From Maribacter sp. (GTDB lineage: Bacteria; Bacteroidota; Bacteroidia; Flavobacteriales; Flavobacteriaceae), in NCBI GenBank assembly GCA_011050675.1, contig DRFI01000029.1:62001-126000 (forward strand): a DNA stretch of 64,000 nucleotides, in the 5' to 3' direction. The notes below the pieces were generated by a model. The model was given only the letters and a program-made list of their open reading frames with translations. It was not told where the DNA came from and made no database searches. The stretch's first letter is position 1. Each line of letters starts with the position of its first letter. Positions 49,485 through 63,395 of the stretch are shown here, piece by piece. A program made the position numbers and the translations under genes.

Positions 49485-50567
49485 TTAAGCGTTTACTATT
49501 TTTTCTTGATGACGAATAGACTCTTGGTGAATTGCTTTGAACATACGAAGAACAAACTCTTCACTTAGCCCCTTGCTTTCTCCTTCAAGTATCATAGCTC
49601 CTAAAATTTCGTTCCAACGTGTACTTTGCAACACTGCTACGTTTTTCTCTTTTTTAAGCTCACCGATTGCATCTGAAGTTTTCATACGCTTACCTAAAGT
49701 TTCAATTAATTGATTATCAATAATATCAATATTGGCTCTAAGGTTGTTCAGCTTTGCATTATACTCAGCCTCGGTATTATCCTCTTTACGAATTTTAAGA
49801 TCTCTCATGATCTGAACCAATTTGCTTGGTGTCACTTGCTGTGCAGCATCACTCCATGCATTATCTGGATCATGATGTGTTTCTATCATCAATCCGTCAA
49901 AATTAAGATCAAGAGCAGTTTGTGATACATCAAAAATCATTTCTCTATTTCCTGTAATGTGCGATGGGTCATTGATAATAGGTAAATCTGGAAATTTAGT
50001 CTGTAAATCAATAGCCATTTGCCATTCTGGAATATTTCTATATTTAGTTTTCTCATACGTAGAGAAACCTCTATGTATTACTCCTAAATTTTTAATATCT
50101 GCAGTAGCCAAACGCTCAACGGCTCCTAACCATAAAGCTAAATCTGGATTTACAGGATTCTTTACCAACACCACTTTGTCGGTTCCTTTTAATGCATCGG
50201 CAATTTCTTGAACGATAAACGGGCTTACCGTTGATCTTGCTCCGATCCATAATAAATCAATATCATGCTCTAAAGCCAATTCAACGTGTGCACGGTTAGC
50301 AACTTCTGTTGCTGTTTTCATACCTGTTTCAGCCTTAACTTTCTGAAGCCATTTAAGACCTAAAGCGCCTACTCCTTCAAAATTTCCTGGGCGAGTACGT
50401 GGTTTCCAGATACCTGCTCTGTAATAATTTACATCGGTATCTTTTAAGGAGTGTGCTATGCCTAGCACTTGTTCCTCTGTTTCCGCACTACATGGCCCTG
50501 CTATTACTAGTGGATGGTCTAGGTTTAAGTCATCCAACCATGTTCTCATTTGTTTTGAATTTTCCAT
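49485..50567 (-). CDS. Bifunctional DAHP synthase / chorismate mutase
   Basis: This is a 360-residue fusion. The N-terminal 260 residues are a type I-beta-like 3-deoxy-7-phosphoheptulonate synthase (VIAGPCSAETEEQVL, YRAGIWKPRTRPGNFEGVG, PIINDPSHITGNREMIFDVS), the first step of the shikimate pathway. The last 90 residues are an AroQ-type chorismate mutase (NLRANIDIIDNQLIETLGKR, HQESIRHQEKI). It ends the aromatic operon. Feedback control through the mutase domain is known for related fusions. Confidence 0.93.
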   Translation of the reverse strand: MENSKQMRTWLDDLNLDHPLVIAGPCSAETEEQVLGIAHSLKDTDVNYYRAGIWKPRTRPGNFEGVGALGLKWLQKVKAETGMKTATEVANRAHVELALEHDIDLLWIGARSTVSPFIVQEIADALKGTDKVVLVKNPVNPDLALWLGAVERLATADIKNLGVIHRGFSTYEKTKYRNIPEWQMAIDLQTKFPDLPIINDPSHITGNREMIFDVSQTALDLNFDGLMIETHHDPDNAWSDAAQQVTPSKLVQIMRDLKIRKEDNTEAEYNAKLNNLRANIDIIDNQLIETLGKRMKTSDAIGELKKEKNVAVLQSTRWNEILGAMILEGESKGLSEEFVLRMFKAIHQESIRHQEKIVNA

Positions 50568-50572
50568 TTTAA

Positions 50573-51439
50573 TTATTCTATTTCTTGTTTAACGGTATTC
50601 TTTTTTAATATTCCTTTAATCTTATTCGTATTATTCATTTCATTATAAATGCCCTCGTAATCATCTTTCAGCAACAAATCTTTAAAAGCTGTAAGATTTT
50701 GAATGTACTCTTCTAATGTTTCTACTACATTCTCTTTATTCTGTTTGAAAATTGGTGTCCACATGGCTGGCGAACTTTTTGCCAAACGCACCGTACTTTC
50801 AAAACCACTACCCGCCATATCAAAAATATCGCGTTCGTTCTTTTCTTTCTCTATTACCGTTTTGCCCAACATAAATGCACTAATGTGCGATAAATGCGAC
50901 ACATAGGCAATGTGCTTATCGTGTGCCACCGGATTCATATACCGAATTCTCATGCCTACTGCCTGAAAAACTTTTAAAGCTTTTTCTTGAAGCTTAAAAG
51001 CAGTTAATTCTACCTCGCAAATAATATTCGTTTTGTCCTTGAACAAATTGTTTACAGCCGCAGACGGACCTGAAAATTCTGTTCCTGCAATTGGGTGACA
51101 TGCTAAAAAATTTCTTCTCTTTGGATGGTTTTCCAACGTTTTACAGATTAATGCCTTCGTTGACCCTACATCAAAAACTACACAGTCTTCATTAACAGCA
51201 TCTAAAATTGTAGGAAGCTCTGTTACCATTACATCAACCGGTATGCTAACAATAACCATATCTGCCAATTGTAAATCTTGATAGGTCGCTTTCTTATCGA
51301 TTATACTCAAAGCCAATGCCTCAGCTAAATTTGCCTCGTTAGATTCTATTCCATAAACAGTTACATTGTCAAAAGCAGACTTTATATCCTTTACCAGAGA
51401 ACCTCCTATTAAACCGATACCAATTACAAATACATTCAT
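50573..51439 (-). CDS. tyrA: Prephenate dehydrogenase
   Basis: TyrA oxidises prephenate to 4-hydroxyphenylpyruvate with NAD(P). The Rossmann motif GIGLIGGSLVKDI opens the protein, and HPIAGTEFSGPSAA contains the substrate-binding His. Length 288 without ACT domain. It lies 5 nt upstream of the DAHP synthase gene and 35 nt after the aminotransferase. Confidence 0.93.
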   Translation of the reverse strand: MNVFVIGIGLIGGSLVKDIKSAFDNVTVYGIESNEANLAEALALSIIDKKATYQDLQLADMVIVSIPVDVMVTELPTILDAVNEDCVVFDVGSTKALICKTLENHPKRRNFLACHPIAGTEFSGPSAAVNNLFKDKTNIICEVELTAFKLQEKALKVFQAVGMRIRYMNPVAHDKHIAYVSHLSHISAFMLGKTVIEKEKNERDIFDMAGSGFESTVRLAKSSPAMWTPIFKQNKENVVETLEEYIQNLTAFKDLLLKDDYEGIYNEMNNTNKIKGILKKNTVKQEIE

Positions 51440-51474: not shown

Positions 51475-52620
51475 TTAAAATCTTTTAATTGCTTCTTTTA
51501 TTTTATCCTGTGTAATACAAAGTGAAAAGCGAATATAGCCTTCACCATTACTACCGAATATAGTACCTGGTGTTATAAACAAATCTTTTGTATACAATAT
51601 GTCATCTATAAATTCTTCTGATGATACACTGCCTTTAGGTAATTTTGCCCAAACGAACATACCTACTGCATTTCTATCAAAAGTACACCCAAGTGTTTCT
51701 GCTAGCTGAAAAATCAATTCTCTACGCTCGCTATACACTTTGTTCAAATCATCAAACCAATCATCACTACTATTTAATGCTGCAATGGCTCCTTTTTGAA
51801 TTCCGTAAAACATACCAGAATCCATATTACTTTTTACCTTTAAAATAGCATTAATGTGCTCCTCACTACCTAATACAAAACCTACGCGCCAACCTGCCAT
51901 ATTAAAAGTTTTGCTCAAAGAATTTAATTCTAAGCACACTTCTTTAGCATTTGGTATACTCAAGATACTTGCAGGTTCTGCATTCAATACAAAACTATAT
52001 GGGTTATCATTCACCAACAGAATGCTATGCTCTTTGGCAAAACCAACAATCTTCACAAATTGTTCTTTCGTTGCCGTAGCTCCCGTAGGCATATGTGGGT
52101 AACTTAACCACATAATCTTAACCTTAGTCAAGTCTTGCTTTGCCAATTCTTCTAAATCTGGAAACCAACCGTTATCTGCAGTTAAATCGTAATATTTAGG
52201 CACTGCACCAACCAAATTGGTAACCGATGTATATGTAGGATAACCTGGGTTAGGAATCAACACTTCATCTCCTTCATTTAAAAAGGCAAGACTAATATGC
52301 ATGATACCTTCCTTAGACCCCATTAAAGGCAGAATTTCTGTCTCTGGACTTGCAGTTACATTAAATTTCTTCTTATAAAAATTAGCTATACCTGCTCTTA
52401 ATTGTGGTAGTCCTTGGTAACTTTGATATTGATGTGCACCACTTTCCAATACAGCTTCCTGTATTGCATTTAACACTTCTTGAGACGGAGCCAAATCTGG
52501 ACTTCCAATCCCCATATTTATGATAGGTTTACCCTGCGCCATTAAGCCGCGTACCTCTCTCAATTTTTTTGAGAAGTAGTATTCCTGTATGGTATTTAAC
52601 CTTTCGGCCGTACGTATCAT
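51475..52620 (-). CDS. Class I aminotransferase, probably aromatic amino acid aminotransferase
   Basis: This is a 381-residue PLP enzyme of fold type I. The PLP lysine lies in NSLSKTFNMAGWRVGF; other motifs are NPGYPTYTSV and WLSYPHMPTGATA. Its place between pheA and tyrA suggests that it transaminates phenylpyruvate and 4-hydroxyphenylpyruvate to Phe and Tyr. It overlaps the pheA stop by 4 nt. Substrate assignment is by context. Confidence 0.9.
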   Translation of the reverse strand: MIRTAERLNTIQEYYFSKKLREVRGLMAQGKPIINMGIGSPDLAPSQEVLNAIQEAVLESGAHQYQSYQGLPQLRAGIANFYKKKFNVTASPETEILPLMGSKEGIMHISLAFLNEGDEVLIPNPGYPTYTSVTNLVGAVPKYYDLTADNGWFPDLEELAKQDLTKVKIMWLSYPHMPTGATATKEQFVKIVGFAKEHSILLVNDNPYSFVLNAEPASILSIPNAKEVCLELNSLSKTFNMAGWRVGFVLGSEEHINAILKVKSNMDSGMFYGIQKGAIAALNSSDDWFDDLNKVYSERRELIFQLAETLGCTFDRNAVGMFVWAKLPKGSVSSEEFIDDILYTKDLFITPGTIFGSNGEGYIRFSLCITQDKIKEAIKRF

Positions 52621-53444
52621 TGTCTTACATTTTTATATTCACCTAAAACTTTAAAGTCCTCTGCCATGATGTCCAATAGACTTTTTGCTTTCACAAAGTC
52701 TCTATATTCTGTAAAAGTAACATCAACAAAAAAGGCATATTTCCATGGCGTTTCTATTACCGGTAACGACTGGATCTTTGTCAAATTCAATCTACAATCA
52801 CTCATAACATTAAGCACAGCAGCTAAACTTCCCCGTTTATGGTCGGTTATGAACCGTAATGAAGCCTTTGTAATTTCAGCTTCTGGCAATACATTGTTTT
52901 TTGTCTTTACAATGATAAAACGAGTGGCATTATTTTTAATGGTCTGTATGTCGTTCGCTACGATGTCCAACCCATATAATTCTGCCGCTACATTCGGTGC
53001 AATAGCTGCAACATGCTTTAATTTTTTTTCTTGTATGCGTCTTGCCGTCTCTGCTGTATCCACATCTTCCACCAATCTTATGTGCGGATATTGCCTGAAA
53101 TATTCCTTACACTGTAACAAAGCCATAGGGTGAGAACTTACCTCAGTGATATCTTCTATTTTCTGTCCCTTTAGCACCATAAGATTATGATGAATATTCA
53201 AATAATACTCACCGATTATGTGCAAATCATTATGATTAACCAATGCATAATTAGGTATTATAGATCCTGCAATCGAGTTCTCTATAGCCATAACTCCTTG
53301 ATCCGCTTCTTTAGACAATAATTTGTCTACCAACGCATCAAAAGAAAGACATTCCACTAGTGCTATATCATCACCAAAACAATCTTTTGCAACTTGGTGA
53401 TGGTTGCTCCCTTTAATTCCCTGTATGGCTATTTTTAAACTCAT
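52617..53444 (-). CDS. pheA: Prephenate dehydratase
   Basis: PheA converts prephenate to phenylpyruvate. The 275-residue product has AIQGIKGSNHHQVAKDCFGD, the periplasmic-binding-like fold with ENSIAGSIIPNYALV, the TRFIIVK motif and a C-terminal ACT domain (GSLAAVLNVMSDCRLNLTKI) for Phe feedback. It is the first structural gene of the operon, 121 nt after a leader peptide rich in aromatic codons and after a terminator hairpin. Confidence 0.94.
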   Translation of the reverse strand: MSLKIAIQGIKGSNHHQVAKDCFGDDIALVECLSFDALVDKLLSKEADQGVMAIENSIAGSIIPNYALVNHNDLHIIGEYYLNIHHNLMVLKGQKIEDITEVSSHPMALLQCKEYFRQYPHIRLVEDVDTAETARRIQEKKLKHVAAIAPNVAAELYGLDIVANDIQTIKNNATRFIIVKTKNNVLPEAEITKASLRFITDHKRGSLAAVLNVMSDCRLNLTKIQSLPVIETPWKYAFFVDVTFTEYRDFVKAKSLLDIMAEDFKVLGEYKNVRQ

Positions 53445-53504: not shown

Positions 53505-53539
53505 AAACAAAAAAAAAGTTCCGATGTACATCGGAACTT
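53505..53539 (-). terminator. Attenuator terminator upstream of pheA
   Basis: On the minus strand a 24-nt perfect palindrome (AAGTTCCGATGT/ACATCGGAACTT, 53539-53516) is followed by nine T residues. It lies between the leader peptide stop (53566) and pheA (53444), so transcription reaching pheA must pass it. Confidence 0.88.
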
Positions 53540-53565
53540 AGATTCTATTTTATATTTAAAATATA

Positions 53566-53637
53566 CTACAACAGTCCCGTACCTCTCTTAAAAAAGAAGT
53601 AAAAATAAAAACCGTTCCAGAAATATTGTTTTGTCAT
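53566..53637 (-). CDS. Aromatic leader peptide (Phe/Tyr/Trp-rich), candidate attenuator of pheA operon
   Basis: This is a 23-codon reading frame on the minus strand with ATG at 53637 and TAG at 53566. It starts MTKQYFWNG, and the core FYFYFFF follows, then KRGTGLL. Ten of 23 codons are aromatic (six Phe, three Tyr, one Trp). This is the make-up of a leader peptide such as PheL, where ribosome stalling at aromatic codons disrupts a downstream terminator. The terminator begins 26 nt after the stop codon. The next gene is pheA. No other gene occupies this stretch. Translation is inferred. Confidence 0.85.
   Translation of the reverse strand: MTKQYFWNGFYFYFFFKRGTGLL
53573..53579 (-). promoter_or_regulatory. 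Possible antiterminator segment CGGGACT
   Basis: On the minus strand CGGGACT (53579-53573), within the last leader codons, can pair with AGTTCCG (53538-53532) in the 5' arm of the attenuator terminator (seven pairs including one G-U). Such pairing would prevent terminator formation when a ribosome stalls at the aromatic run just upstream. The pairing is inference by eye. Confidence 0.5.
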
Positions 53638-53789
53638 TGTGCTTGTAAACTTTGGCTAAAGTAGTAATTTTATTTAAAAATGGTTGTTTTCCATTTTATT
53701 TTTTTGAAAAAATCAATTTCTGTCTCAAAAAGTGAAGGTTTTGTGTTAAATATTGAATGAATTTGTAAATAGCGCAACATGAGTAGATG

Positions 53790-55109
53790 CTAATTATGCG
53801 ATGTATTTGGTTGATAATAAAACGGAATAGACCAGTTAAATTCTCTCGCTTCTCCTAAGGTTTTGGTTACTTCAATAATATTCTTTCCTTTTTTTAATAA
53901 GTTTTTATCTATAAAACCAACAATACCGAATTGCTCTGAAATAGGATGATTTTTTTTAAGAAAATCAATTTTCAACAATTGACCGTTTAATTCTACAGAA
54001 TGATACTTCTCATAACAATCAAGATAAAACTGCTGTGCATTAACTCTGTTCCCATCTATTGACAAACTATCGTCATCGTTAAATTCACCACAGGTAGTTT
54101 TTTGATAATTACGCTCATGATGGAAAACTGGGATAAATAATTTTACAGTATTATCCTCTATTATATCTGATTGTATTTGAGGGGTTATTAAAAATGATTC
54201 ATTTATATTTTGATTCTCATAGTAACTCAATTGCATTTTGTGAACATCATAACTAATTGGATTAATCAAATGAAAAATATTGGTGTCTTGAATTTTAACA
54301 ATGGCAACACACATACCAGAAACAAAAAATAACAAAATTAAAAACACTAGTGATTTTTTCTTTTTAAAATTAGAACCAAAAACCATCGTTACCTGAAGTA
54401 AATACTTGTACAATGGACCATACGTTACCAATGTCGTAAGACGAACAAGCTTAAACATCCAAGTTTGGACCCAAACGTTAGTTTTGAACATTTTTAAATT
54501 TCCTATAACACTAAAAATAGTTTGCAGAACAAGTAAAATTAAAGATATAAAGAGGGGAATTAAGAGTATATAACTTGGAACATAGTCTATCAATAAATTA
54601 TATATCAACATGTAAACGCTCAGAAATACAGACATGTACATGTAAATTAAAAGAATTGTAAAAGCAGCCGAAAAAATCACACTACATAATTCATCTACTT
54701 TCTGAATAGTATCTTCTTGTTTGGGTAATATTCCTAAAATCTTCTCCGTATAAATTTTAGAATATGCACTGTCTTCAATGCTATAATCAGGAAAGACAGA
54801 GTTCAACCCAACTAGACCAATCCAATAAGCACGTAAAAAGAAATGAATTACAAACATGGATACTAGAATACTGATGGCCAACAAACCCATAAAAACTATA
54901 AAATATCCGTACTGATACTGTTCAATAGGTAATAAGTCAATATATTTATTTGTCACCCATTCTATCAGCCCAAATAGCTGAAACGTACCAAAAATTGCAA
55001 TTGCAGAAACTAATAATTCTGCTTCCCAACTTTCTTCTTTGAGTCGTTGAAGCCATTTTATGTTTTTCTTATTCTCTAAAACTTGGGAGGTCTCTGTTGA
55101 TTGACTCAT
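53790..55109 (-). CDS. Integral membrane protein of unknown function
   Basis: This is a 439-residue protein with about six hydrophobic segments in the first 270 residues (SAIAIFGTFQLFGLIEWV, GYFIVFMGLLAISILVSMF, FTILLIYMYMSVFLSVYMLI, and others) and a soluble C-terminal domain, probably outside the membrane (VKLFIPVFHHERNYQKTTCG). I do not recognise the family. It is on the same strand as the pheA operon but separated from it by 150 nt and the leader. Confidence 0.7.
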   Translation of the reverse strand: MSQSTETSQVLENKKNIKWLQRLKEESWEAELLVSAIAIFGTFQLFGLIEWVTNKYIDLLPIEQYQYGYFIVFMGLLAISILVSMFVIHFFLRAYWIGLVGLNSVFPDYSIEDSAYSKIYTEKILGILPKQEDTIQKVDELCSVIFSAAFTILLIYMYMSVFLSVYMLIYNLLIDYVPSYILLIPLFISLILLVLQTIFSVIGNLKMFKTNVWVQTWMFKLVRLTTLVTYGPLYKYLLQVTMVFGSNFKKKKSLVFLILLFFVSGMCVAIVKIQDTNIFHLINPISYDVHKMQLSYYENQNINESFLITPQIQSDIIEDNTVKLFIPVFHHERNYQKTTCGEFNDDDSLSIDGNRVNAQQFYLDCYEKYHSVELNGQLLKIDFLKKNHPISEQFGIVGFIDKNLLKKGKNIIEVTKTLGEAREFNWSIPFYYQPNTSHN

Positions 55110-63242: not shown

Positions 63243-63303
63243 TTTTAAGTTATCTGTCTTTATTTTGCTATTGTAAAATAACAACTCCTGCACAAGTAAG
63301 CAG

Positions 63304-63395
63304 GTTAAAGATAGAATGTAGCACCTTCTTTTCCTTTAAGGAAAGGGTTGCCAAGGTTTCATAGGGTCTAATCCCTCCGCCTTTCTTGATAACGT
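63304..63395 (-). ncRNA. SAM-I (S-box) riboswitch
   Basis: On the minus strand the sequence GTTATCAAGAAAGGCGGAGGG, with GATTAGACCCTATGAAACC and TTGGCAACCC, then GGTGCTACATTC, follows the S-box consensus including the TTGGCAACC core and the GGTGC 3' part. It controls the metH-metF operon. High S-adenosylmethionine is expected to reduce expression. The outer boundaries are approximate. Confidence 0.92.

Follow-up and report, generated by a model that had tools for sequence, protein, structure and literature searches.

The enterobacterial pheL leader is Phe-rich and controls pheA alone, and in the enterobacterial thr and ilv attenuators a single leader responds through its codons to more than one amino acid of a related group. 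A described system from the same phylum is Bacteroid-trp (RF01692), a peptide leader with a terminator in Bacteroidota whose control codons specify Trp (WWW). A 2021 transcriptome of Flavobacterium psychrophilum identified structured 5′ elements before pheA and hisG that are conserved in other Flavobacteriaceae genera and have no Rfam match, and it reported clues to leader-peptide attenuation at amino acid operons (PMC9723704). That pheA element shares its gene and bacterial family with the element described here, which is thus not wholly unreported; the main-text section of the account gives no peptide, pairing or distribution (PMC9723704). Our literature search, which covered few subscription papers, found no account of a pheA leader peptide, its pairing or its distribution. 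A comparative study of attenuation was reportedly published by Lopatovskaya et al. in 2010. An earlier prediction of this attenuator is possible, for instance in that study. The text of PMC2965389 contains none of the words 'bacteroid', 'pheA', 'flavobacter' or 'aromatic'.

A putative attenuator of the aromatic operon in Maribacter

The DNA analysed here is a stretch of 64,000 nucleotides from Maribacter sp. (hereafter the window), in which four genes on the minus strand form an aromatic amino acid operon. The first controlled gene is pheA, encoding prephenate dehydratase (52617..53444; PF00800, 6.2e-58; 98% protein identity to Maribacter stanieri), followed by a class I/II aminotransferase (51475..52620; PF00155), the prephenate dehydrogenase gene tyrA (50573..51439; PF02153 and PF20463, with NF006307 over its cut-off) and a fusion of DAHP synthase with type II chorismate mutase (49485..50567; PF00793 and PF01817). 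Pfam matches thus confirm the originally predicted gene order. From its sequence we read the region upstream of pheA as a ribosome-mediated transcription attenuator of this operon, with a probability of roughly 0.93; its anatomy is confirmed, its mechanism is probable and its novelty is moderate.

The locus resembles the pheL attenuator in its short aromatic leader frame, its alternative hairpins and its terminator before pheA, but its leader combines codons for Phe and Tyr with a single Trp codon and precedes a four-gene operon. The multi-amino-acid leader is also a likeness to the enterobacterial thr and ilv systems, with an aromatic set in place of Thr/Ile or Ile/Val/Leu. No Rfam 15 family reached its threshold at the element. 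The highest sub-threshold match at the locus was the enterobacterial Phe_leader (RF01859), which aligned over its full length with 25 bits (E 0.046), far under its gathering score of 55 bits. Bacteroid-trp was unmatched at the pheA locus, and no T-box was found there by gathering score or among the seven matches with E <= 5. The kind of attenuation is classical, but the present version, a candidate new cis-regulatory RNA without a match in Rfam 15, is little described in Bacteroidota.

Leader frame, terminator and RNA segments

The leader peptide frame, MTKQYFWNGFYFYFFFKRGTGLL followed by a stop codon, occupies 53566..53637 on the minus strand; ten of its 23 codons are aromatic (translation of 53637-53566), and its control codons are codons 5-16. 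When every ATG-initiated frame 8-50 codons long was counted on either strand of the window, this was the only one with more than seven aromatic residues in 12 codons, having 10, and 30 dinucleotide shuffles of the window reached at most 8. Translation thus confirms the predicted 23-codon frame, and the window-wide count together with the shuffles excludes chance as its origin. The peptide, which is too short for the usual gene callers, is presumably translated. The RNA from 53665 to 53505 folds with a z-score of -3.85, equally good folding being seen in one of 200 shuffles. A promoter-like box, TACTTTAG (53656..53663, minus strand), lies 26 to 19 nt upstream of the leader ATG and resembles the flavobacterial -7 box, given as TAnnTTTG in PMC9723704; the motif [TA]AnnTTAG occurs in all 80 sequences compared (the window and 79 loci), 24-28 nt upstream of the leader start in 76 of them, and probably acts as the promoter of the leader.

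The perfect palindrome with a T-run that the original prediction placed after the frame is likewise seen in the sequence: a 12-bp palindrome, AAGTTCCGATGT/ACATCGGAACTT, at 53539-53516, starting 26 nt past the leader stop codon and leading into nine T on the minus strand. Four RNA segments can be assigned on this strand. Segment 1, AACGGUUUU (53608..53616), covers codons 8-10 and can pair with segment 2, CGGGACUGUU (53570..53579), the predicted antiterminator strand at codons 20-23, which includes GGGACU (codons 20-22) and can pair with either segment 1 or segment 3. An inner, pause-type hairpin, ACUUCUUU...AGAGAGGU, is located at 53581..53600. Segment 3, the 5′ arm of the terminator, is AAGUUCCGAU (53530..53539), and segment 4 comprises the 3′ arm AUCGGAACUU and the U-run (53509..53525); the terminator is formed by 3:4.

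For comparison we took as a near set the pheA loci of the 80 best-ranking among 196 confirmed relatives, from genera including Maribacter, Arenibacter, Flagellimonas, Allomuricauda, Croceivirga, Saonia, Euzebyella, Muriicola and Poritiphilus. The region before pheA in relatives had been singled out in the original prediction as the place where close relatives without the leader would count against it; the aromatic frame is present at 79 of the 80 near loci, and other families have versions of it that have diverged. The single exception is a contig that begins 155 nt upstream of pheA, yet has the terminator (L051). The operon order pheA-aminotransferase-tyrA-DAHP synthase-chorismate mutase is kept in 79 of the 80 loci. 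The gene upstream of the leader in the window could be recognised in just 8 of 80 (tblastn E <= 1e-8, flank of up to 5 kb), which indicates that the leader and terminator go with pheA as a unit. A terminator between frame and pheA was detected at 77 of 80 loci by a first finder, and those of L024, L041 and L053 were recognised on later inspection and in the alignment-free count. The distance from stop codon to T-run is 45-49 nt in 75 of 79 loci, and that from T-run to pheA ranges from 2 to 121 nt. At 37 of 79 loci the T-run ends no more than 20 nt from pheA, leaving scant room there for a promoter downstream of the terminator; the gap in the window is larger. At one locus (L015:4862-4930) the leader is cut by an early stop (MTKQYFYNRFFFYFFFLRS), and a segment 2-like sequence, GGGCTGTTG, spans and follows the stop codon.

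From this arrangement we infer ribosome stalling, transcription termination and a response to starvation, as follows. RNA polymerase would initiate just upstream of the leader frame, and a ribosome would translate the leader. Under a shortage of charged tRNA-Phe or tRNA-Tyr (in this clade possibly also of tRNA-Trp), the ribosome would stall within codons 5-16 and cover segment 1, leaving segment 2 free to pair with the 5′ arm of the terminator once this is made, and polymerase would continue into pheA. When charged tRNAs are plentiful, the ribosome would reach the stop codon and cover segment 2, the terminator would form and transcription would stop.

We modelled this switch by masking the leader with an assumed ribosome footprint of 31 nt and folding the RNA before segment 4 exists, under assumptions by which a ribosome on the last Phe codon (codon 16) has its leading edge only just short of segment 2. 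The 2:3 pairing formed in 73 of 75 sequences when the ribosome was placed at codon 7, 10, 13 or 16, and in none of 75 when it was placed at the stop codon, a result that follows by construction since segment 2 is then masked. Without a ribosome 2:3 still formed in 57 of 75, so that the 1:2 pairing would be a weak protector. On the finished RNA the terminator beat 2:3 on average in every modelled state; antitermination would therefore be kinetic, with the choice made during transcription.

Pairing, covariation and control codons

Counted without any alignment, the 2:3 pairing extends over 6 to 9 contiguous pairs in all 80 sequences. We also scored it in two alignments, in which the cells are not independent because the sequences share kinship. 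The first, A1, held 73 of the 80 sequences, leaving out L015, which has no full T-run in its stretch, and six identical copies. Here 2:3 was paired in only 72.6% of cells and the terminator in 66.8%, and sliding 2:3 by +1 gave 93.6%; these low counts are due to a one-column shift that MAFFT introduced in the terminators of the window's clade. The second, A2, realigned 49 of the 73 rows, the 24 left out being near copies or rows with shifted terminators (the window, L001, L002, L004, L008, L009, L011-L014, L024, L037, L039, L042, L045, L046, L052, L062, L064, L066, L069, L071, L074 and L077). Because rows were chosen for A2, the alignment-free count over all 80 sequences was added.

In A2, 2:3 was paired in 96.5% of cells, versus 22-60% (maximum 59.5%) when slid by 1-3 columns, and none of 500 shuffles was as high in cells paired or in covariation score; two 2:3 pairs showed double changes, a number matched by 67 of 500 shuffles. 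The terminator was paired in 97.3% of cells in the same 49 relatives, with double changes at four pairs. The 1:2 pairing, which is G-U rich and weak in folding, was paired in 96.4% of cells, and the inner hairpin in 93.0%, with a double change at no pair. The short frame rich in codons for the operon's products, the intrinsic terminator that separates it from the first gene, and the antiterminator 2:3, mutually exclusive with the terminator, are features of a Yanofsky-type attenuator. The conserved frame, the terminator and the covarying exclusive pairings thus support the original reading of the locus as ribosome-mediated attenuation.

It had further been suggested that the mixture of Phe, Tyr and Trp codons would fit control by all three end products of the pathway. 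The part of this suggestion that concerns Phe and Tyr is supported, these codons being the conserved property of the leader: among 34 divergent leaders, counted from 42 after removal of seven near copies and L225, 33 contain both. In favour of a role for Trp, codon 7 is Trp in 69 of 75 near leaders, a modelled stall at this codon likewise frees 2:3, and the operon includes a DAHP synthase, an enzyme that serves all three aromatic products. Against this, codon 7 has become Tyr or Phe in the other six near leaders, Trp occurs in 13 of the divergent leaders and is absent from 21, it makes up 4.2% of the aromatic codons of the divergent leaders (4.1% with L225) as against 8.5% in the proteins of the window, and trpE has a separate WWW leader. 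An attenuator that by design senses Trp as well, and hence all three products, is therefore doubtful, although in this clade, as in some others, Trp may exert control.

The near-set peptide is strongly conserved, its non-aromatic residues N8, G9, G21 and L22 included, and a leader peptide that acts in trans is on record (the part of PMC7298713 available to us), so that a functional small protein might be encoded instead of, or besides, a leader. However, N8-G9 sit in RNA segment 1 and G21-L22 in segment 2. Codon 20 is T, A, M, K, R, E or V in 75 rows, whereas its third base hardly varies (G in 73, A in 2). The two A-ending cases (L016 and L068) both have a GUCCU arm, a form present at 12 loci, and so make an A-U pair instead of a G-U pair; the other ten loci of this form retain G and with it the G-U pair. 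Gly21 is replaced by Glu in 4 of 75 rows. Each of these four has a GUUCC arm, the matching form of the terminator; of the 20 rows with this arm, the remaining 16 keep Gly (G-U pair). Divergent loci preserve the abundance of aromatic codons and the RNA pairing, but their other peptide residues differ. A functional small protein is on this evidence very improbable, and the changes at codons 20 and 21, which suit RNA pairing, are the clearest sign in the sequences of the RNA switch of an attenuator.

Distribution across Bacteroidota

When 296 genomes of the order were searched with a covariance model built from the near set, 10 matches were strong (E < 1e-17, one of them in the Maribacter genome itself), and 31 further genomes had weak matches. 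A second match in the Maribacter genome itself (L082, E 0.0024) was rejected as a terminator between two converging frames, and among the covariance-model matches listed no further leader copy was recognised in this genome. Covariance searches yielded at least 49 new loci (L089-L137), 30 before pheA and 19 without pheA. At each of the 30 the richest short frame has 5 to 10 aromatic codons of 12; these loci fall in the families that we label f1, f2, f13, f15, f17, f18 and f22.

In a survey of the phylum, PDT was present in 172 of 198 genomes, and 90 pheA loci, 30 best-scoring and 60 for spread, were picked by gene rather than by leader. A leader, a terminator and a possible 2:3 pairing were jointly present at 23 of the 90, whereas none of the 90 reverse strands and none of 3600 shuffles had all three. 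The test was passed by all examined loci of f1 (9/9), f17 (4/4) and f18 (5/5), by 5 of 20 loci in f22 (1/4), f33 (1/2), f48 (1/3), f30 (1/10) and f42 (1/1), and by none of the 52 in the rest of the survey (f5, 0/2, included); two passes, L205 and L213, have pairings of only 5 and 4 nt. None of the 67 negatives has a short frame with seven aromatic codons of 12; two have a frame with six, far upstream. Five loci of f5 and f22 without a leader (L156, L177, L181, L184 and L190) have a long open frame whose end is 8-29 nt upstream of the match to pheA, as though the attenuator had been lost once pheA came to lie inside another operon.

Segments 2 and 3 change in concert across families, as GGGACU/AGUCCC, GAGGCU/AGCCUC, AGGAUU/AAUCCU and GCCGGGACU/AGUCCCGGC. 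A first permutation test of this match used 52 of 54 loci (L120 and L131 were lost to the terminator finder). Since 23 of its loci had been chosen by a pairing criterion, we repeated it on 18 divergent loci not so chosen, also dropping L089-L097, which belong to the near set, L102 and L103, which are near copies, and L120 and L131. The score of a segment 2 with its own segment 3 was 19.4 versus 14.6 for cross pairs, and none of 5000 permutations was as high. Divergent Phe/Tyr-rich leaders, each with its own matching pairing, thus precede pheA in a number of other families of Bacteroidota, though not in every one.

A structured RNA upstream of an amino acid operon might also sense a ligand or tRNA directly, in the manner of a riboswitch or T-box, with the frame incidental. 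This is scarcely credible for an element at which no Rfam family attains its gathering score, in which the control codons match the operon's products and segment 2 is placed to suit a stalled ribosome, and whose divergent versions have in common the coding property and the switch pairing, an informal look having brought no shared aptamer sequence to notice among them. That the hairpin merely terminates the upstream gene (53790-55109), which is on the same strand, and that the aromatic frame is a chance product of U-rich DNA, which favours Phe codons, is negligible as an explanation given how seldom that gene is recognised at the near loci, the separate terminator farther upstream in L003, L005, L007, L008 and L034, the failure of shuffled frames to reach 10 aromatic of 12, and the joint-test result against its shuffled and reverse-strand controls.

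If it works as an attenuator, the element would provide aromatic amino acid synthesis with a well-delimited switch open to testing, of a sort thinly described in the phylum. On a broader reading, for which we see an even chance, it is an ancient Bacteroidota attenuator, spread over several families, that reads the charging of Phe and Tyr tRNAs (and in some clades Trp) on interleaved codons as an OR gate on the whole Phe/Tyr branch and on DAHP synthase, the entry enzyme; together with the trp, his and ilv leaders it would make ribosome-mediated attenuation a main control of amino acid synthesis in these bacteria, implying tight coupling of transcription and translation. Bacteroidota make little use of Shine-Dalgarno sequences. 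The leader could serve as a natural reporter of whether their ribosomes follow RNA polymerase closely, and a working ribosome attenuator would, if true, agree with coupling in this phylum, which in the accessible part of a 2026 study is absent from the phyla classed as showing runaway transcription (PMC13323073).

Three further leaders were seen in the Maribacter genome. Before the likely trpE (L228, G000:C5) stand the leader MKNLNVNTWWWNNLRKTS and a terminator, with a Bacteroid-trp match at L228:751-867 (54.9 bits, threshold 49). A His leader, MKNRTTHHHIHTHAQAR, stands with a terminator before hisG (L232, G000:C23), where no Rfam family reaches threshold; it is possibly of the same type as the hisG element that PMC9723704 reports. 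Before the likely ilvD (L233, G000:C18), an Ile/Val-rich frame, MNLTNINIEVVIVIPEWR, is followed by a terminator, making a candidate Ile/Val attenuator. With leaders before trpE, hisG and ilvD, attenuation looks like a habit of this genome. The window also contains a SAM riboswitch, at 63257-63395 on the minus strand (55.4 bits).
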